DNA of 16,817 nucleotides, taken from Candidatus Methanoplasma sp. Lineage in GTDB: Archaea > Thermoplasmatota > Thermoplasmata > Methanomassiliicoccales > Methanomethylophilaceae. Every line of letters starts with the position of its first letter. Within the stretch, counting starts at the first letter, position 1. The DNA is taken from assembly GCA_031256615.1 (NCBI GenBank), contig JAIRQG010000146.1, positions 1-16,817 of the forward strand. Reading direction: 5' to 3'. Below the pieces are notes generated by a model. It was not told the origin of the DNA, ran no database searches, and saw nothing but the letters and a program-made list of their open reading frames with translations. Below, piece after piece: positions 2,779 through 15,329 of this stretch. Made by a program: the position numbers and the translations under genes.

Positions 2779-4455
2779 ATGAAAGGATCAAGAGCACTAC
2801 TCAAATTGCTGGAGGACAAAGGAGTTGAAACGATGTTCGGGTACCCGGGCGGCGTAGTGATTCCAATCTATGATGAAATATTGGAGTCATCAATTAGACA
2901 CGTCCTTGTACGCCATGAGCAGTGCGCTGCGCACATGGCGGACGGATTCGCCAGAGCCAGCGGCATCCCCGGCGTGTGTCTCGCCACAAGCGGCCCGGGC
3001 GCCACTAACCTTGTCACAGGCATAGGCACAGCATATGCCGATTCGGTGCCGATGATCGCGCTTACAGGCCAGGTCGGCACAGGGTCCCTGGGGATAGGCG
3101 CTTTCCAGGAGGTCGATGCGTACAGCCTGATGATGCCCATCACGAAGCACAGCTTCAGGGTCTTGGAGGTGAACAGGCTTCCGCATGCGATACTGGAGGC
3201 ATGGGAAATCTGCCAAACGGGAAGACCGGGACCGGTCCACATCGATTTCCCCGCCGATCAGATCAACGCTGATGTTGACGAGTCTCTGTTCAATGAGACC
3301 TACGGCATAAAGCACATGAAGGAAGACTATTCCGGAATAGAACAGGCAGCGCAGTGGATCAAAGAGGCCCAGAGGCCGGTCATGCTTGCGGGCGGAGGGG
3401 CCATCGGAGCAAACGCCAGCCCGGAGATCATAAAGCTTGCCGAGATGGCCAGCATACCCGTCATAACGCCGCTGATGGGCATCGGCGTCATTCCCTCTTC
3501 GCATCCGCTCTGTTTGGGATCGTTAGGAATGCACGGCAGAGTGTGTTCGCTCAATGCGTTCAGGAATTCAGACCTCATCATAGCTGTCGGCACGAAGTTC
3601 TCAGACAGGACATACAGCCCTCAGACAGCCCCCTCGCAATCATGCAAGGTCATTCATATAGACGTTGATCCCACAGAGTTCGATAAACACAAGAGGGAAG
3701 CGATCAACATAACCGGCGACGCGAAGAAAGTCACCGCCATGATCATCGAGAAGCTTGGAGGCTATGCAGGTAGCCGCATCGAATGGGATCAGAACATCCG
3801 GGAACTCAAGAAACACTGCAGCTGCGATTTCAATTATGATCTGACGCCCATTGTCCCGCAGAAGGTAATGTACGAGATCAACAGGATAACAAGAGAGGAT
3901 CCCGACGACTACATCATCACCACGGATGTCGGACAGAATCAGATGTGGGCGATGCACTATCTGCAGATCGAACGCCCCAGGCACTTCATCTCTTCAGGCA
4001 GTTTCGGCACCATGGGATTCGGCCTTCCCTCAGCGATAGGCGCGAAAGCCGCGTGCCCTGACAAGAAAGTGATGACAATAACCGGCGACGGCGGGCTGCA
4101 GATGGTGATGCAGGACATAGCGACATCTGTCGCCGAGGACCTGCCGGTGGTCATCTGTCTGCTTAACAATGGATGGCTGGGTATGGTCAAACAGTGGCAG
4201 AAGCTGTTCTGGAACGAGAGGTACAGCAACACCAAGCTGGGGGCGAATCCCGATTTCATGAAGATCGCTCAGGCATACGGCGCAAAAGGCATCCGCGTCG
4301 AGAAACCGGGAGAGATACGCGACGCTTTCAGGGAGGCTTTCAGCAGCGGAGAGACGTCCATAGTGGAGATCATGATCGACTGTGAGGAAGATATCACTCC
4401 GATGATACCCGCGAATCCGGCGATTCCGCTGATCAAAGGGCGTTGCAAGTTCTGA
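2779..4455 (+). CDS. ilvB: Acetolactate synthase, large (catalytic) subunit
   Basis: Thiamine-diphosphate enzyme that condenses two pyruvates to 2-acetolactate (valine/leucine) or pyruvate with 2-oxobutyrate (isoleucine). The 558 residues show the three-domain layout: PYR domain with the catalytic glutamate E47 in VRHEQCAAHMADG and the SGPGATN loop; a central FAD-type domain (roughly 190-330, with PVMLAGGGA); and a C-terminal PP domain with the ThDP motif GDGG...LLNNGWLGM (from about 436). This distinguishes it from pyruvate oxidase or benzoylformate decarboxylase less firmly than from other families, but FGYPGG at the N-terminus and the C-terminal PMIPANPAI segment are typical of biosynthetic enzymes. 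Start is ATG with GAGGT 6 bases upstream. No ilvN regulatory subunit follows; ilvC lies at 9091 on the same strand, separated by a minus-strand operon. Confidence 0.93.
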   Translation: MKGSRALLKLLEDKGVETMFGYPGGVVIPIYDEILESSIRHVLVRHEQCAAHMADGFARASGIPGVCLATSGPGATNLVTGIGTAYADSVPMIALTGQVGTGSLGIGAFQEVDAYSLMMPITKHSFRVLEVNRLPHAILEAWEICQTGRPGPVHIDFPADQINADVDESLFNETYGIKHMKEDYSGIEQAAQWIKEAQRPVMLAGGGAIGANASPEIIKLAEMASIPVITPLMGIGVIPSSHPLCLGSLGMHGRVCSLNAFRNSDLIIAVGTKFSDRTYSPQTAPSQSCKVIHIDVDPTEFDKHKREAINITGDAKKVTAMIIEKLGGYAGSRIEWDQNIRELKKHCSCDFNYDLTPIVPQKVMYEINRITREDPDDYIITTDVGQNQMWAMHYLQIERPRHFISSGSFGTMGFGLPSAIGAKAACPDKKVMTITGDGGLQMVMQDIATSVAEDLPVVICLLNNGWLGMVKQWQKLFWNERYSNTKLGANPDFMKIAQAYGAKGIRVEKPGEIRDAFREAFSSGETSIVEIMIDCEEDITPMIPANPAIPLIKGRCKF

Positions 4456-4578: not shown

Positions 4579-5730
4579 TCATTTGTGTATCAGATTGGAG
4601 TGTCCGTTTCCGTTGGGCTGAGGGTATTCGTAAATATGACCCAGATAATTTCTCATAACAACTTTTTCATCATCGATGGAGACGATGTACTCTGGATTCA
4701 TGGGGACCTTGCCACCGCCTCCCGGAGTGTCTATGGCGAAAATTGGTATCGCAAAACCGGAGATATTCCCGCGCAATTCCCCAATGATCCTGATGCCTGT
4801 CCTCACGTCAGTTCTGAAATGCTGTAATCCTTTGCTCATATCGCACTGGTAGAGGTAATACGGCCTGACCCTTGCTTTGGTTAGACCCAACATAAGGGCT
4901 TTGATCGTTTCGGCATCGTCATTGACACCCCGGAGCAGCACGCTCTGGTTACCTAAGGGAATGCCGGCATCGACGATCGAAGCGCACGCCTCGACAGATG
5001 CGTTCGTCAGTTCCTTTGGGTGGTTGAAGTGTGTGTTTATCCATATGGGTTGGTGTTTTTTCAGCATGCTGAGCAGCGCCGGCGTCACTCTCATGGGCAT
5101 CGTGACGGGGATTCTCGTTCCGATGCGGATGATCTCCACATGTTCGATCTCACGCAGCTTGGATAAAATAAGGTCGAGTCCGGCGTCGGAGAGTGTCAGC
5201 GGGTCCCCGCCGGATACCAGCACATCCCTGATTTCAGGCGTTCTTCTGATGTATTCGACCGCTTCGTCGATCTCCTCGTTGCTTATCGAGATATCTTCCT
5301 CGCCGACGAGCCTTCTGCGGGTACAATGCCTGCAGTACATTGCACAGCACCGCGTCACTAAAAAGAGCACCCTGTCGGGGTATCTGTGCACGATGTTCCT
5401 AACGGGGCTGAATCTTTCTTCGCCGAGGGGATCGGCCATCTCCCACGGGAATGTTCTTTTCTCATTGATCAACGGGACCGCCTGCGCCCGGATGGGATCA
5501 CACGGGTCATTTGGGTCGATCAGCGAGGCGTAATAAGGCGTCACCGCCATGCGAAAATCCTCAAGACATGCTGAAATATCCGTTTTTTCCTTTTCGGAGA
5601 GATTTAGCACACCGGATAACTGCGCTGCATCCATGATGCGGTTGCGGTACTGCCAGTGCCAATCGTTCCACTCCGGCGATCCTTCGGTGACGCCGAACAT
5701 CCGGAACACGCGTTCATTCGTTCTGCTCAT
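4579..5730 (-). CDS. kamA: L-lysine 2,3-aminomutase (radical SAM, PLP), last gene of a four-gene operon
   Basis: Moves the alpha-amino group of L-lysine to C3, giving beta-lysine. The radical SAM cluster motif is CAMYCRHC (C129, C133, C136), followed by SGGDPL (183-188). The PLP lysine is K341 in DTPGGGGKVP. The two aspartates that hold the lysine side-chain amine in the Clostridium enzyme (D293, D330) correspond to D297 (YQCDMS) and D334 (IDTPGG), with the same 37-residue spacing and the same 7-residue distance to the PLP lysine. Glutamate 2,3-aminomutase has Lys/Asn at these positions, so lysine is the likely substrate. The C-terminal cysteines that bind zinc in the clostridial enzyme are absent. 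Length 383 aa. ATG 5730 follows the ligase stop by three bases and has GGTGAGGG directly upstream. Methanogens normally pair this enzyme (AblA) with acetyltransferase AblB to make an osmolyte; AblB is not adjacent. Confidence 0.92.
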   Translation of the reverse strand: MSRTNERVFRMFGVTEGSPEWNDWHWQYRNRIMDAAQLSGVLNLSEKEKTDISACLEDFRMAVTPYYASLIDPNDPCDPIRAQAVPLINEKRTFPWEMADPLGEERFSPVRNIVHRYPDRVLFLVTRCCAMYCRHCTRRRLVGEEDISISNEEIDEAVEYIRRTPEIRDVLVSGGDPLTLSDAGLDLILSKLREIEHVEIIRIGTRIPVTMPMRVTPALLSMLKKHQPIWINTHFNHPKELTNASVEACASIVDAGIPLGNQSVLLRGVNDDAETIKALMLGLTKARVRPYYLYQCDMSKGLQHFRTDVRTGIRIIGELRGNISGFAIPIFAIDTPGGGGKVPMNPEYIVSIDDEKVVMRNYLGHIYEYPQPNGNGHSNLIHK

Positions 5731-5733
5731 CCC

Positions 5734-6729
5734 TCACCACCGCATCCCATACCGCTTCAGAGCGCAGCCCAGTATCGCGCGGATAAGGTCGTCATATTCT
5801 ATCTTGTTATATCCCGCCAGCATCGGGAAGTCGCTATAGCCCGGAGCCAGCCCGGGCAGGGGATTCACCTCGATGAAGAACACGTGTCCGTTCTCGGAAA
5901 GTCTGAAATCGACCCTGGCAAGGTCCAGGCAGCCAAGCGTTCTGTAGACCGTCTCGGCATCGCGTTTCATTTTGGCGGTGAGTTCATGAGGAAGGTCCGG
6001 CGGACATTCGTAAGAGATATAGTCCTGGTAGTTCTGCTTTACTTCGTAACTGTAGATCCTATGGGGGCCTCTGAGCTTGCGATAGATGATCTCCATTGGC
6101 TCAAGGACGCGTATGTCGGGGCCGTTTCCGATGATCCCTACCGTGAACTCCCTGCCGTCGATATACTGTTCCGCCAGAAGGTCGCCTCCGAGATCCGGCA
6201 TCGATCTTTCGACAAGTGTCCGCAATTGCGTCATATCCTCCGCGACGCTGTCATCCGAAACGCCCTTGCTCGATCCCTCCGCATTCGGTTTCACCAGCAC
6301 CGGGAACGGGATATCGCCGGGCAGCTCCTTTTCCTCATGCGTAATGACGCAGAAAGCAGGGGTCTCTATGCCGCAGCTTCGGACAAGCCTTTTTGTCATG
6401 GCTTTGTCCATAGCGACCGAGAGCGCAGCGGCGTCCGAACCTGTGAAGGGGATGCCGTAATATTCGAGAATGGCGGGGATCTGCGCTTCCCTGCTCCTGC
6501 CGAAACGTCCCTCTGCGATATTGAAAACGATGTCCGGCGAAGCCGCTTCCAGTTTTTGAGGGAATTCCTCCGTGGCTTCCAACACCACGGTCTCGAATCC
6601 GCCGTTCCTCAGCGCGGCCTTTATCGCATCGACCGTCTCCGGTTCATCGAACTCCGCCTCGATATCGGAGGTACGGTCGGTCTTGATGTTGCAGGCAATG
6701 GCCACGCGAAGAACGTCAGACCGGTCCAT
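5734..6729 (-). CDS. ATP-grasp ligase of the D-alanine-D-alanine ligase superfamily, substrate unknown
   Basis: Predicted to activate a carboxylate as an acyl-phosphate and join it to an amine or amino acid. The 331 residues contain FNIAEGRFG (69-77), ATP-grasp lysine K147 in VLVKPNAEGSSKGVS, the YSYEVKQNY segment, and metal ligands around D274 and E287/N289 in FIEVNPLPG. The acceptor loop that binds the terminal D-Ala in true Ddl enzymes (TSHSLVP type) is replaced by PGLAPGYSDFP, so it is probably not a D-Ala-D-Ala ligase. An archaeon without murein would not need one in any case. ATG 6729 was chosen over an upstream ATG (6774) because GGAGG lies 7 bases before it and it limits the overlap with the preceding gene to 14 bases. 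Its place between a peptidase and the aminomutase suggests it couples lysine or beta-lysine to a partner. Confidence 0.82.
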   Translation of the reverse strand: MDRSDVLRVAIACNIKTDRTSDIEAEFDEPETVDAIKAALRNGGFETVVLEATEEFPQKLEAASPDIVFNIAEGRFGRSREAQIPAILEYYGIPFTGSDAAALSVAMDKAMTKRLVRSCGIETPAFCVITHEEKELPGDIPFPVLVKPNAEGSSKGVSDDSVAEDMTQLRTLVERSMPDLGGDLLAEQYIDGREFTVGIIGNGPDIRVLEPMEIIYRKLRGPHRIYSYEVKQNYQDYISYECPPDLPHELTAKMKRDAETVYRTLGCLDLARVDFRLSENGHVFFIEVNPLPGLAPGYSDFPMLAGYNKIEYDDLIRAILGCALKRYGMRW

Positions 6730-7414
6730 CCTTTTCCTCCGTTTCGATCTTTCCGTTTGTATTACGGAACACAACCGGTGCGTTCCTGAGTGTCTTAAGA
6801 TCCCCTTCCTTGTTGGCAGTGTAGAATCCGCCGGTCGAAAGCCCGTGCCCCCTGGAACCGGACCCCATCAGGCGCAATGCGCATTTCAATTCTTTCCATC
6901 CCTCATCCTCGCAGTGCGTATCGAAGGTCATTGGTACGAAATTCAGGCAGTCGAAGAGGCTTGCCGTGCTGTCGTCGCCTTCAACGTTCCAGTGGACCCA
7001 ATTGCGGCCCATCATGATGCATCCCGCTGATGTCCCGAAAAATATCTTTCCATCGTTGTACAGTTCGGTCAGGAAAACATCCAGGCCTGCTTTTTTCAGC
7101 AGCACGATCCCGTCCTCCACTTCTCCTCCCGAAAGGAAGATACAGTCCGCTTCGGAAAGCATTCGTTTCGCCGCCTCAATGTCCGCGCGTTTTCTTGCGA
7201 TAGGGACAAGGGTGACCTCTCCCGCGCCCGCTTTGACCAACTGTCTTTTGATGAGCATGTAGAACGGCCAATTGTCATGGCTCGCCGTTCCGATGTAGGC
7301 GACCTTAGGGTTCGGTTCCCCGCAGGCATCGAACACTGTGCGGAAATTCTCCATCATGCTTTTCATGTCCAGGGAGTGGCCCCCCGGTATCAGATATACT
7401 GGTCTTGCGCTCAT
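6716..7414 (-). CDS. Peptidase S51 / cyanophycinase-like hydrolase
   Basis: Class I glutamine-amidotransferase fold serine hydrolase of the dipeptidase E/cyanophycinase group (232 aa). The nucleophile elbow is GTSAGC with S129. The likely catalytic histidine is H167 in MTFDTHCEDEGW, matching the D-x-H segment of cyanophycinases. LSGGEVEDG (95-103) is the loop that usually supplies the oxyanion/acid region. No signal peptide, so it should be cytosolic. Known members cleave alpha-aspartyl dipeptides or the beta-Asp-Arg/Lys dipeptides released from cyanophycin; which applies here cannot be told. ATG 7414 overlaps the preceding gene's TGA by four bases (ATGA), with GGAG 8 bases upstream, so it is translationally coupled. 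In context it may hydrolyse or proofread the product of the neighbouring ligase. Confidence 0.85.
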   Translation of the reverse strand: MSARPVYLIPGGHSLDMKSMMENFRTVFDACGEPNPKVAYIGTASHDNWPFYMLIKRQLVKAGAGEVTLVPIARKRADIEAAKRMLSEADCIFLSGGEVEDGIVLLKKAGLDVFLTELYNDGKIFFGTSAGCIMMGRNWVHWNVEGDDSTASLFDCLNFVPMTFDTHCEDEGWKELKCALRLMGSGSRGHGLSTGGFYTANKEGDLKTLRNAPVVFRNTNGKIETEEKDGPV

Positions 7415-8721
7415 ATGAACAGCTCCTTTTCGTCGAATTCAAAATTTGCCTGTGTGCGCCTGTATTTGCCGGCAGGCCCCGGAAGGATATCAGCAACAAT
7501 CCGGATGTCAAAATCTCCGTTGCCGCCGTAAACGTTCTCAAGAACTGCGCGGAGCCCGTACTGTGCTTCTTTTCGATCGGTCCCGGGGGACAACGCCGCC
7601 TCAAGCAGATAGTGCGTGCGGTCGAGCTGCTCCAAACGATAGTCCCTCATCCCGCTGACGGTCGCGATCCGGTCATCCAATGCTTTTGTGGTGACGAGGC
7701 CGCCGGCAGTTGTGAACGTGACGTTGCTCACGCGCCCCTCTATTGCATCGGCGATCATCCCCTCGCATCGTCCGCAATCGCACACCCCGTCCGGATGCAG
7801 CCGGATGAGATCGCCGACATCGAAGCGGATGATACAGTTCCATGGATTGTCGAAAGTTGTGACAAAGATGCGCCCAAGCTCCGGGCCGCCGTATTCTTCT
7901 TTCAACGGTTGAAAGTCTATCCTACAGAACTTCATGTTCTGGTGCATGAGCCCGCACTCGCACTGTTCCATGACGAAGCCCGTCTCCGTCGTGCCGTACG
8001 AGCTGACAAAAGCGGACGAGAACACACGACGGATCGCGGCAAGATGTACGGCCGAGGGGAACTCGAACGTGAAAACGATGGCCTGCGGAGAGAATACTTC
8101 TTCCCTGTTGTCAAGCACCCGATACGCCAGCCTTGCCAGCAGCGACGAGTTCGCCTCCAGGATGATCGGCCGGTACGCATTCAGTTCGTCTACCATCCGC
8201 TTCAGATGGTGGGGCTGCCACTGCAGAATGCTCGTTTTCTCGTTGAGATAGAGCGTGTTGCCCAGGATCCTGTGCGACATGGGAAGATCCTCTTCGCAGT
8301 TTATCCCCACGTTCAGTGAGCTGGCGAGCTTCGCCTGTCTCTGAGGATGATCAAGGATGGCCATGTGGCGGTTCAGTTCCCATGAAGCTGCTTCAGATCG
8401 GTCCCACCAGCCCTGGTCCCATATGTTGACCACCTTCTCTGAGGTCGTCCCGCTGGTGTAGGTATACTGTATCTCCTCGTTCCTCAGTCCTTCGTTAAGG
8501 TCCTTCCAGTCAGGCATCAGCCCCAAGGGGAAATGGGCGCGCATCTCGTTCTTTGTGAGTATGGGCAGCGCGTCAAAGCGCTCGTCCGCGGTAATGTGCG
8601 GTCCGGGATCGAACCGTTTCCACTCCTTGTAAACGGGAACGTGCTCGAACGCCATATCAAGGAGAGCCATGCACCTCTCCTGAAAATCCTTGGGATAGTT
8701 GAATCTGTTTGCAAGTATCAT
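7411..8721 (-). CDS. PaaK-like adenylate-forming enzyme (phenylacetate-CoA ligase family), first gene of the operon
   Basis: Acyl-adenylating enzyme of the PaaK/coenzyme F390 synthetase family, 436 aa; expected to form an acyl-AMP and pass the acyl group to CoA or another acceptor. Motifs: P-loop YTSGTTSEK (88-96, with S where G is usual), YGTTETG (242-248), adenosine-binding RFDVGDLIR (299-307), GRVSN (329-333) and the C-terminal catalytic lysine K419 in GPAGKYRR. Cysteines at 254 and 256 and in CDCGRC (314-319) resemble the zinc-binding cysteines of some PaaK relatives. The acyl substrate is not recognisable. ATG 8721 has only a weak ribosome site (GAGAGA). It is the promoter-proximal gene of a unit continuing through the S51 peptidase, ATP-grasp ligase and aminomutase, so its acyl product probably feeds that pathway. 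Confidence 0.83.
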   Translation of the reverse strand: MILANRFNYPKDFQERCMALLDMAFEHVPVYKEWKRFDPGPHITADERFDALPILTKNEMRAHFPLGLMPDWKDLNEGLRNEEIQYTYTSGTTSEKVVNIWDQGWWDRSEAASWELNRHMAILDHPQRQAKLASSLNVGINCEEDLPMSHRILGNTLYLNEKTSILQWQPHHLKRMVDELNAYRPIILEANSSLLARLAYRVLDNREEVFSPQAIVFTFEFPSAVHLAAIRRVFSSAFVSSYGTTETGFVMEQCECGLMHQNMKFCRIDFQPLKEEYGGPELGRIFVTTFDNPWNCIIRFDVGDLIRLHPDGVCDCGRCEGMIADAIEGRVSNVTFTTAGGLVTTKALDDRIATVSGMRDYRLEQLDRTHYLLEAALSPGTDRKEAQYGLRAVLENVYGGNGDFDIRIVADILPGPAGKYRRTQANFEFDEKELFI

Positions 8722-9039: not shown

Positions 9040-9090
9040 TAAGTATTAGTGTATCAATGAATTGAACCTCATTAGCGTAAGGTGGAAATA

Positions 9091-10074
9091 ATGCACATTT
9101 ACCACGATTCAGATGTGGACATAAATGTCCTCAAGGGAAAGAAGGTCTCTGTGCTCGGATACGGAGCACAGGGGAGAGCGCAAGCACTCTGCTTCCACGA
9201 CTCAGGACTGGATGTGACCGTTGGGGTAAGAAAAGACGGAAAATCCTGGAAAAAGGCCAAAGAAGACGGCCTGAAAGTAGCAGAGTTCGCCGATGCCGTA
9301 AAAGGAGCGGACGTTGTGATGATGCTGCTTCCCGATGAGGTACAGCCGGACATTTACAAAACATTTGTTGAACCCAACCTCAAAAAGGGCGCTGCGCTTG
9401 AATTCGCTCATGGGTTTGCGATAACATACAAGCTCATCACCCCTCCGAAGGACGTGGATGTTATCATGATGGCGCCCAAGTCCCCCGGTGACATGGAGAG
9501 AGAAGTGTTCCTTCAGGGGTTCGGCGTTCCCGCACTAGTATGCATATACCAGGACGCAACCGGAAACGCAAAAAAGATCGCTCTGGCACTTGCCAAAGGC
9601 CTTGGGTCTACCCGTGCGGGAGTGTTCGAGACCACATTCGATAACGAGACAAAGACCGACCTCTTCGGCGAGCAGGCAGTTCTCTGCGGAGGACTCACGG
9701 CCCTCATCAAAGCCGGATTCAAAACACTGGTCGAGGGAGGATATCCTCCAGAGATGGCCTACTTCGAAGTGCTGCACGAAGTGAAGTTGATCGACGATCT
9801 GATAAACAGAGGCGGGTTCGAACTCATGTGGCACGTTGTTTCCAACACGGCTGAGTACGGAGGCCTTACCCGAAGGGACAAGGTCATTACGCCGGAGTCC
9901 CTGAAGGGAATGAAATCCATCCTTGAAGACATTGAGTCGGGTAAGTTCAAGGACGACTGGCGCGCCGAGTGGGCAGCAGGGCTTGTCAACCTCAAGAAAA
10001 TGGAAGAGGATGAGAAGAAACTGCAGCTCGAAGTGGTCGGCAGAGATATAAGAAAACTCTTCGAAAGAAAATAA
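9091..10074 (+). CDS. ilvC: Ketol-acid reductoisomerase, class I (short form)
   Basis: Second common enzyme of valine/isoleucine/leucine synthesis: isomerises and reduces 2-acetolactate (or acetohydroxybutyrate) with NAD(P)H. The 327 residues show the Rossmann motif GYGAQGRAQA near residue 24, the cofactor loop VRKDGKSW, FAHGF with the catalytic histidine, MAPKSPG with the conserved lysine, DLFGEQAVLCGG (magnesium-binding Asp/Glu), and the knotted-domain segments EVLHEVKL and SNTAEYG. All catalytic positions I can check are present. ATG 9091 was chosen over in-frame GTG 9082 because AAGGTGG lies 5 bases upstream of the ATG, whereas the GTG sits within that ribosome site. It acts on the product of ilvB (2779), but the two genes are separated by the minus-strand operon. 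A small cyclophilin-fold gene follows after 19 bases and is probably co-transcribed. Confidence 0.95.
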   Translation: MHIYHDSDVDINVLKGKKVSVLGYGAQGRAQALCFHDSGLDVTVGVRKDGKSWKKAKEDGLKVAEFADAVKGADVVMMLLPDEVQPDIYKTFVEPNLKKGAALEFAHGFAITYKLITPPKDVDVIMMAPKSPGDMEREVFLQGFGVPALVCIYQDATGNAKKIALALAKGLGSTRAGVFETTFDNETKTDLFGEQAVLCGGLTALIKAGFKTLVEGGYPPEMAYFEVLHEVKLIDDLINRGGFELMWHVVSNTAEYGGLTRRDKVITPESLKGMKSILEDIESGKFKDDWRAEWAAGLVNLKKMEEDEKKLQLEVVGRDIRKLFERK

Positions 10075-14677: not shown

Positions 14678-14989
14678 ATGAGTGCGGTCAAGACGAATGC
14701 GATTCCGTTTGAAGAATTATGTGACATCGTCAGACCCATTGCCGAAGAATACGGAGTGAATAGGATCATCCTCTTCGGTTCCGTGGCGCGGGGGGATTAT
14801 GTAGCGGGAAGCGATTATGACTTTTGCGTAAACCTCGGCAGAATCGATGATCTTGTAAAAATGTGCGGATTCATCATAGACCTCGAGTCTGCATTGGGCG
14901 GACCCGTAGATGTTGTAAGCGAACGCACGCTGGATGAGGATTTCGCAAAGGAAGTGTTCAATGACGGAAAACTTGTTTATGAAGCGTGA
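14678..14989 (+). CDS. mntA: MntA-type minimal nucleotidyltransferase antitoxin
   Basis: Antitoxin of the MNT/HEPN system, 103 aa. In studied cases it transfers AMP to the toxin's active-site tyrosine and so silences it. The nucleotidyltransferase signature GSX10DXD is exact: GS at 34-35 (LFGSVARGD) and D46/D48 (GSDYDF). A third acidic residue D78 follows in GGPVDVVSE. No ribosome site precedes ATG 14678, so a leaderless start is likely. The next gene, the HEPN toxin, overlaps it by 29 bases, which is the usual arrangement. The intact catalytic residues argue that the pair is functional rather than decayed. Confidence 0.9.
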   Translation: MSAVKTNAIPFEELCDIVRPIAEEYGVNRIILFGSVARGDYVAGSDYDFCVNLGRIDDLVKMCGFIIDLESALGGPVDVVSERTLDEDFAKEVFNDGKLVYEA

Positions 14990-15329
14990 TCTGAAAGACA
15001 TCGAGACAATAATAGAATACTGCGACCGAGTGGACAGAGCCATGACAGAGTTCGGCAGGGATGAAGAGGACTTTCTTGATAACTATGTTCTTCAGAGCAG
15101 TTGTGCGTTCTCTCTCATCCAAATTGGAGAATGCGTTAAAAGTCTTTCAACGCGCGGATTCTGTGAGAGATATCCTGCGGTAGAGTGGAGCAAAATCGCA
15201 AAATTTAGAGATGTCATCGTTCATCACTATGGAAAAATCGACTTTCATATCGTGTGGAAAACTTCTGCATATCTTGTTCCTGAACTAAAAGCGCAGTGCG
15301 AGGCTATTCTTAAAGGCTTGAAACTTTGA
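14961..15329 (+). CDS. hepT: HepT-type HEPN toxin (DUF86)
   Basis: RNase toxin partner of MntA, 122 aa, all-helical. The HEPN active-site motif RX4HXY is intact as R83-DVIV-H88-H-Y90 in KFRDVIVHHYGK. The N-terminal helix (RDLKDIETIIEYCDRVD) and the central SCAFSLIQIGECVKSLS helix fit the DUF86/HepT family. ATG 14961 is chosen because GGAAG lies 6 bases upstream; ATG 14979 (MKRDLKD) is a reasonable alternative and ATG 14934 is less likely. All three overlap the end of mntA, implying translational coupling. Known relatives cleave tRNA or mRNA and are neutralised by AMPylation of the motif tyrosine. Confidence 0.9.
   Translation: MTENLFMKRDLKDIETIIEYCDRVDRAMTEFGRDEEDFLDNYVLQSSCAFSLIQIGECVKSLSTRGFCERYPAVEWSKIAKFRDVIVHHYGKIDFHIVWKTSAYLVPELKAQCEAILKGLKL

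Follow-up and report, generated by a model that had tools for sequence, protein, structure and literature searches.

In the biosyntheses of dapdiamide, cystargolide, and E-64, an ATP-grasp enzyme forms one bond and a stand-alone adenylating enzyme another, independently of nonribosomal peptide synthetases (NRPS), and the products are tripartite amides, according to the E-64 paper PMC12568646. N-epsilon-acetyl-beta-lysine is described as a solute of methanogens in the available portions of PMC1224877 and PMC12776343, and ablA is discussed in an osmolyte context in the accessible text of PMC9337991. The locus described here lies on a stretch of 16,817 nt (contig JAIRQG010000146.1 of Candidatus Methanoplasma sp., assembly GCA_031256615.1), which is designated as the window at its full length. 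It is an operon of four genes coding, in the order of transcription, for a PaaK-like adenylate-forming enzyme (gene 1), an S51 serine hydrolase (gene 2), an ATP-grasp ligase of the D-Ala-D-Ala ligase (Ddl) type (gene 3), and a lysine 2,3-aminomutase (LAM, gene 4). From its sequence relationships, the set was apparently acquired laterally from bacteria by a methanogen. With about even probability, it represents a laterally acquired NRPS-independent pathway making a small beta-lysine amide or peptide.

The locus resembles the ablA/ablB pathway in that LAM diverts lysine to beta-lysine and in having a methanogen as host, but there AblB acetylates the product, whereas the present locus encodes an ATP-grasp ligase, a PaaK-like enzyme, and an S51 hydrolase, and AblB was not found. 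With DdaF/DdaG, CysC/CysD, and Cp1B/Cp1D, it shares one ATP-grasp enzyme and one stand-alone adenylating (ANL) enzyme encoded together. It differs in that neither LAM nor S51 hydrolase is described for dapdiamide, cystargolide, or E-64 in the accessible part of PMC12568646, and in that the adenylating enzyme is from the PaaK branch. No description of the four-gene set was found in the open-licence PMC literature, judged by titles and openings of abstracts. Two open-licence papers, on beta-phenylalanine degradation and on the phaseolotoxin Pbo cluster, mention both an aminomutase and ATP-grasp. An earlier note, made from the letters of the window, had read the genes as an archaeal pathway joining beta-lysine to another acid or amino acid. 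Its four minus-strand genes and their three joints (Table 1) were exact to the base, and the families that it named were recovered, LAM, ligase, and S51 by Pfam and the adenylating enzyme by PaaK fold only. The proposed pathway held in outline for LAM and ligase, and a shared product for the adenylating enzyme and S51 is plausible; its archaeal origin did not hold, in view of the bacterial trees and the empty site in relatives.

The window LAM is 55% identical to the solved clostridial LAM (2a5h) at 196 of 356 aligned positions. All seven positions checked are kept, with C129, C133, C136, R138, D297, D334, and K341 corresponding to C125, C129, C132, R134, D293, D330, and K337 of 2a5h. From the LAM structure literature, we take these to be the three cluster cysteines (CxxxCxxC), the Arg, Asp, and Asp substrate residues, and the lysine binding pyridoxal phosphate (PLP). 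The seven are invariant in an alignment of 18 rows (the window, 12 bacterial operon copies, and five fusion proteins); incomplete or relocated LAMs (from L008, L011, and L019 and from the L006, L007, L013, and L017 genomes) are not among these rows. Identity and residues thus support the predicted formation of beta-lysine, as suggested earlier. The equivalog cut-off of TIGR03820 (AblA) is exceeded narrowly (527.1 vs. 525.4 bits). When LAMs of four bacterial operons were scanned with it, L018 was over (540.5) and L004, L022, and L015 were just under (522.5, 519.9, and 511.9, respectively). Glutamate 2,3-aminomutase (TIGR04368) was rejected at 469.8 against a cut-off of 650, and arginine aminomutase was rejected too, as the window LAM is below that cut-off. 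Thirty genomes of the order carry another KamA-like protein, 30–37% identical to the window LAM (e.g., L092 5117–7147 in G048). Its open frames are 555–715 aa long in 28 of them, and in the remaining two the matches are located at contig starts. The lysine 5,6-aminomutase subunit PF09043 of KamDE lysine fermentation was matched in none of 13 genomes, and no control genome was positive either.

The ligase contains the Ddl C-terminal ATP-grasp domain PF07478 (118.8 vs. 24 bits) and is under every NCBIfam Ddl cut-off viewed (best 194.9 vs. 243 bits; 25 of 47 matching families). Residues of its nucleotide and metal sites, with roles as we presume them, align with those of DdlB and VanA. At the place of the Ser-Leu pair, which holds the second substrate in Ddl, it has Ser299-Asp300. 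Ser-Asp was found in all 20 rows of operon-type ligases, L008 among them and the rows not all independent of each other, and Asp300 is invariant in a separate alignment of 22 rows. Six close LAM-fused ligases of the ligase-tree set have Ser-Arg instead, and Ser-Asp occurs in six other LAM-ligase fusions and in all three ligase-LAM fusions examined. Asp300 could pair with a basic substrate, for instance beta-lysine. Homologues of the window ligase were taken as the best 120 of 5742 matches, from at most 8000 candidates. P0073, P0063, and P0085, some of them named Deltaproteobacteria or Polyangia, are tandem two-domain ATP-grasp proteins, and the second domain of P0063 shares the PGYSD motif with the operon ligase. 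No LAM is annotated beside H1, the single rhizobial plasmid ligase inspected.

LAM and ligase are often found as one polypeptide, which is the strongest pointer to function. The search with an archaeal LAM-ligase fusion, likewise drawing on at most 8000 candidates, gave 4014 matches, and 118 of the best 120 carry both Pfam domains, by reading. Named records with fusions among these best 120 are from Thermoplasmatota, Methanocellales, Woesearchaeota, Nanoarchaeota, and Spirochaetales. Nine fusions were scanned closely, six of them LAM-ligase and three ligase-LAM. A quick tree built from ligase domains places the N-terminal ligases of P0337 (55% identical to the window ligase) and of P0341/P0343 (46%) in two separate branches of the operon clade. 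Values of the SH-like approximate likelihood ratio test (SH-aLRT) are 83 for the P0337 fork, 92 and 89 for the other forks, and 96 for the whole operon clade. Because the fused ligases nest in two branches, we take genes 3 and 4 to have been fused at least twice, with the window order kept. The putative coupling of LAM and ligase, already proposed from the window, is strongly backed by fusions in both orders, some of them nested in the ligase clade of the operon.

Two-gene sets in G022, G135, and G138, all of the same archaeal family, consist of a LAM-ligase protein and, after it, a second ligase that is extended at its C terminus. In the two extensions scanned (L085 and L042), Pfam recognized a GNAT acetyltransferase; the second ligase of L086 resembles these in length. 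The sets are similar to the window operon in joining LAM and a Ddl-type ligase, here in a single polypeptide, but they have a second ligase with a GNAT domain (seen in L042 and L085) instead of PaaK and S51, and their ligases belong to a different sub-clade. Given this pairing in the archaeal cousins, the combination of ligating and capping beta-lysine seems to recur, realized by different enzymes. In Thioflavicoccus mobilis, a cultured salt-marsh bacterium, a ligase 31% identical to that of the window adjoins a LAM 48% identical, near genes of diaminopropionate type. On its plasmid pTHIMO01 (L101 2668–8149), diaminobutyrate aminotransferase, SbnA-like, ornithine-cyclodeaminase-like, ATP-grasp, and LAM genes are together, and this group is possibly a pathway for a beta-lysine/diaminopropionate peptide.

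No Pfam family matches the product of gene 1, and its predicted model has the PaaK/ANL fold over the whole chain, with the conserved A-motifs and the C-terminal Lys present. Invariant in 36 homologues are TSGTT (89–93), S241, G243, T245, E246, and G248 of SYGTTETG, Asp304, Arg330, and Lys419. The nearest matches in fold include the PaaK-family ligases ClxA, AjiA1, and NatL2, but the identity to these and to PaaK1 (phenylacetate-CoA ligase) is about 17–20%. All named equivalogs (PaaK, FlxY, and others), including a role as F390 synthetase, were rejected with the best at 40.8 vs. 251.9 bits. The homologue list of this protein comprises the best 120 of 726.

The S51 hydrolase matches PF03575 at 66.8 against a gathering score of 23.9. 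Its model has a predicted local distance difference test (pLDDT) value of 92.6 and matches cyanophycinase and peptidase E, with template modelling (TM) scores by query length of 0.60–0.77 in the 20 best and 0.75 for cyanophycinase 3en0. The fold and the Ser-His pair are as in these enzymes, but the protein is under the cut-offs of both and has invariant Glu169 and Glu171 just past the conserved His. Ser129, His167, Glu169, and Glu171 are invariant in all 18 aligned rows, from which L006, L012, and the contig-cut L021 and L023 are left out. The DQH motif of cyanophycinase aligns at this His, and cyanophycinase is without acids at the positions of the two Glu residues, which could be complementary to a basic beta-lysine product. 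A storage role like that of cyanophycin, one of the roles first considered, was dropped, as the protein has 49.8 bits against the TIGR02069 cyanophycinase cut-off of 126.6.

The contig scan with 36 PaaK-like homologues gave 21 loci, all in bacterial metagenome-assembled genomes, 18 of them Bacillota, two Coriobacteriia, and one Treponema by title. The loci were located by the PaaK-like family alone, using two peptide patterns, and records near the window's genome may be missed. One names goat omasum, and the isolate names Nt197P3, Th196P3, Lab288P3, and Emb289P4 are presumably those of termite-gut bins. S51 comes after the PaaK-like gene in 20 loci, and in the remaining one, L023, the contig stops within PaaK. 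In 14 of the 21 loci, all four families lie on the same strand of a single contig, which bears out the clustering that the earlier note had proposed to look for and, as the loci were picked by the PaaK-like family alone, is more than chance. Five of the 14 have partial or broken genes: the LAM is gapped in L008 and short in L011, the ligase of L016 is in two frames, L019 has PaaK in two frames and a cut LAM, and the S51 of L021 is cut. Four more loci (L005, L006, L007, and L023) are cut by contig ends. The order is PaaK-S51-ligase-LAM in most loci and ligase-LAM-PaaK-S51 in L020–L023, and LAM is before the ligase in L008. The PaaK-like family is rare, being present in two of 391 genomes sampled from one bacterial class, both previously known carriers. 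No fifth gene recurring beside the cluster was found across the loci. The RNA search returned tRNAs, one RNase P, and two divergent molybdenum/tungsten cofactor riboswitches, which are upstream of the cluster on the opposite strand (L005 2788–2909 and L019 59–180).

The window's genome is a draft of 151 contigs, 81% complete. It encodes methyl-coenzyme M reductase alpha (E 7.2e-60), and the host is therefore a methanogen; among 14 control genomes, this marker search was positive only in the two methanogens, Methanocaldococcus jannaschii and Methanosarcina acetivorans. In the archaeal order, the PaaK-like family is present in one of 147 genomes. LAM at 1e-30 is present in one of 17 genomes of the genus, and some KamA relative in 39 of the 147 of the order. 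In quick trees, the window LAM stands beside that of L004, a Eubacteriaceae bin (SH-aLRT 99), and the window ligase groups with P0001 and L004 within a bacterial clade. Of 14 same-genus ilvC loci, six show ilvB immediately upstream in the same orientation. Fewer than 200 bases separate the two genes in L052, L053, L057, and L060, and the spacing is about 0.9 kb in L051 (insert 632–1423) and about 1.3 kb in L058 (insert about 240–1500), where other sequence is present. In L063, ilvB is beside ilvC but reversed, and the other seven show no ilvB in the available ≤1.5 kb. Cluster genes were found at none of the 14 ilvC loci. The matches to the two flanks of the window meet at a single base in L053, and this delimits the extra segment given in Table 1. 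The nearest relative, G016, has an ilvC 97% identical and lacks the cluster at that site. The junction may be a hotspot for insertions, as L051 and L058 carry different small inserts there. The share of AGA/AGG among Arg codons is 0.31–0.62 in the four cluster genes and 0.70–0.87 in eight of 11 flanking genes; the other three have 0.50, 0.50, and 0.00, so codon use supports transfer only weakly. The occurrence in the order, the nesting of the LAM and ligase trees among bacteria, and the closed ilvB-ilvC site argue against an archaeal origin, which was rejected.

In the proposed pathway, LAM would very probably convert L-lysine to beta-lysine, judging from its residues. The fold and motifs of the PaaK-like enzyme make acyl-AMP chemistry on a further carboxylic acid only slightly less probable. 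The ATP-grasp ligase would probably activate a carboxylate as acyl phosphate and form an amide with an amine, with beta-lysine as one partner, as the fusions suggest. At even chances, the PaaK-like enzyme could pass its acid to an amine directly or through CoA, and so cap the beta-lysine unit. The S51 hydrolase might, with similarly balanced probability, take the PaaK product or the completed conjugate as its substrate, in trimming, proofreading, turnover, or acyl transfer. A capped intracellular solute seems likelier than a secreted compound, since beta-lysine derivatives and capped peptides serve as osmolytes (in the accessible parts of PMC1224877, PMC12776343, and PMC9337991), no exporter or regulator recurs beside the genes, and the archaeal cousins look GNAT-capped.

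Some results weigh against this proposal. Against a solute role, no riboswitch for osmotic control was found in the RNA search; against a shared product of the two pairs, three of the 21 loci (L012, L013, and L017) have PaaK-S51 without adjacent ligase or LAM. In the L013 genome, a ligase-LAM pair is situated elsewhere; in that of L017, the ligase is on another contig and the LAM found falls outside the operon clade; in that of L012, neither was found on searching. The two pairs could be independent neighbours, ligase-LAM making a beta-lysine dipeptide and PaaK-S51 handling an unrelated acid. These three loci, the swapped order of the pairs in L020–L023, and three archaeal genomes with LAM-ligase fusions and without the PaaK-like family agree with such independence, but the genes overlap tightly in the window, all four families are together in most loci, and the pairs stay together across Bacillota, Actinomycetota, and Spirochaetota, so that it is judged improbable. 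The same chemistry could also give a beta-lysine amide that is exported to act as an antimicrobial, an inhibitor, or a signal, in the manner of dapdiamide, cystargolide, and E-64. An ATP-grasp enzyme with a stand-alone adenylating enzyme is the logic of small inhibitor pathways, according to the accessible part of PMC12568646; ClxA, AjiA1, and NatL2 are close in fold, and the PaaK-like family is patchy. Export is nevertheless rather unlikely, as the set comprises four genes only and no transporter, resistance, or regulatory gene recurs next to it, with isolated exceptions such as LysR upstream in L013.

The other two alternatives have much lower probability than these. That the operon is a variant of the established ablA-ablB pathway for the osmolyte N-epsilon-acetyl-beta-lysine would fit the AblA-like LAM and the methanogen host, methanogens being users of this solute in the available parts of PMC1224877 and PMC12776343, but the cluster has no AblB and the ligase and adenylating enzyme would be superfluous. 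TIGR03827 was unmatched in the window's genome, where 81% completeness leaves absence unproven, and the control Methanosarcina acetivorans was positive; of 41 genomes searched, this one included, six had weak matches and none was over the cut-off. With AblB unmatched, the classic acetyl-beta-lysine route is extremely unlikely. An artefact of binning or assembly, in which a piece of bacterial DNA was wrongly joined to an archaeal contig, is hardly more probable. It would explain why bacterial names are among the near relatives of the ligase and PaaK-like protein (best 120 listed), why all 21 loci are bacterial, and why the family occurs once in the order, in a draft genome of many contigs. However, genus-type ilvB and ilvC flank the cluster within one contig and abut in L053, so two misjoins at one closed site would be needed. 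Moreover, a 97% identical ligase, P0001, is on another contig of 38 kb, and two relatives hold different inserts at the same junction.

Coordinates of the operon and of its surroundings are given in Table 1. The longest frame of the ATP-grasp gene opens at TTG 6774, but ATG at 6729 was taken as the start, because GGAGG is just upstream and P0001 begins at the matching position. Farther along the window (14678–15329, plus strand), a nucleotidyltransferase (MNT-like) gene overlaps a HepT-like gene, and the two resemble a HepT/MNT toxin-antitoxin pair.

Table 1. Features of the four-gene operon and its flanks in the window
Feature	Position	Strand	Basis
PaaK-like stand-alone adenylate-forming enzyme (gene 1, 436 aa)	7411–8721	-	ORF; PaaK fold; motifs
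S51 (peptidase E/cyanophycinase-like) serine hydrolase (gene 2, 232 aa)	6716–7414	-	ORF; PF03575
D-Ala-D-Ala-ligase-type ATP-grasp ligase (gene 3, 331 aa)	5734–6729	-	ATG at 6729; PF07478
Lysine 2,3-aminomutase, LAM (gene 4; radical SAM, PLP; 383 aa)	4579–5730	-	PF12544/PF04055; TIGR03820
ATGA stop/start overlap of genes 1 and 2, 4 bases	7411–7414	-	
Overlap of genes 2 and 3, 14 bases	6716–6729	-	
Gap between genes 3 and 4, 3 bases	5731–5733	-	
ilvB, acetolactate synthase large subunit; left flank; also in same-genus relatives	2779–4455	+	
ilvC, ketol-acid reductoisomerase; right flank	9082–10074	+	
Inferred acquired segment	4463–9033, ends approximate		Ends of BLAST matches; not present in same-genus genomes with ilvB almost abutting ilvC

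Tentatively, LAM and the Ddl-type ligase may lie at the centre of a large and so far uncharacterised group of beta-lysine peptides in bacteria and archaea, GNAT-capped in some archaea and PaaK-like/S51-capped in anaerobic bacteria, with compatible solutes as products, and handed from the bacteria to this methanogen. If the proposed pathway is true, free beta-lysine would be built into small molecules without NRPS machinery, and a class of beta-amino-acid metabolites would be added to anaerobic microbes. It would also exemplify clearly the transfer of an entire biosynthetic operon from bacteria into a methanogen, at a defined site.

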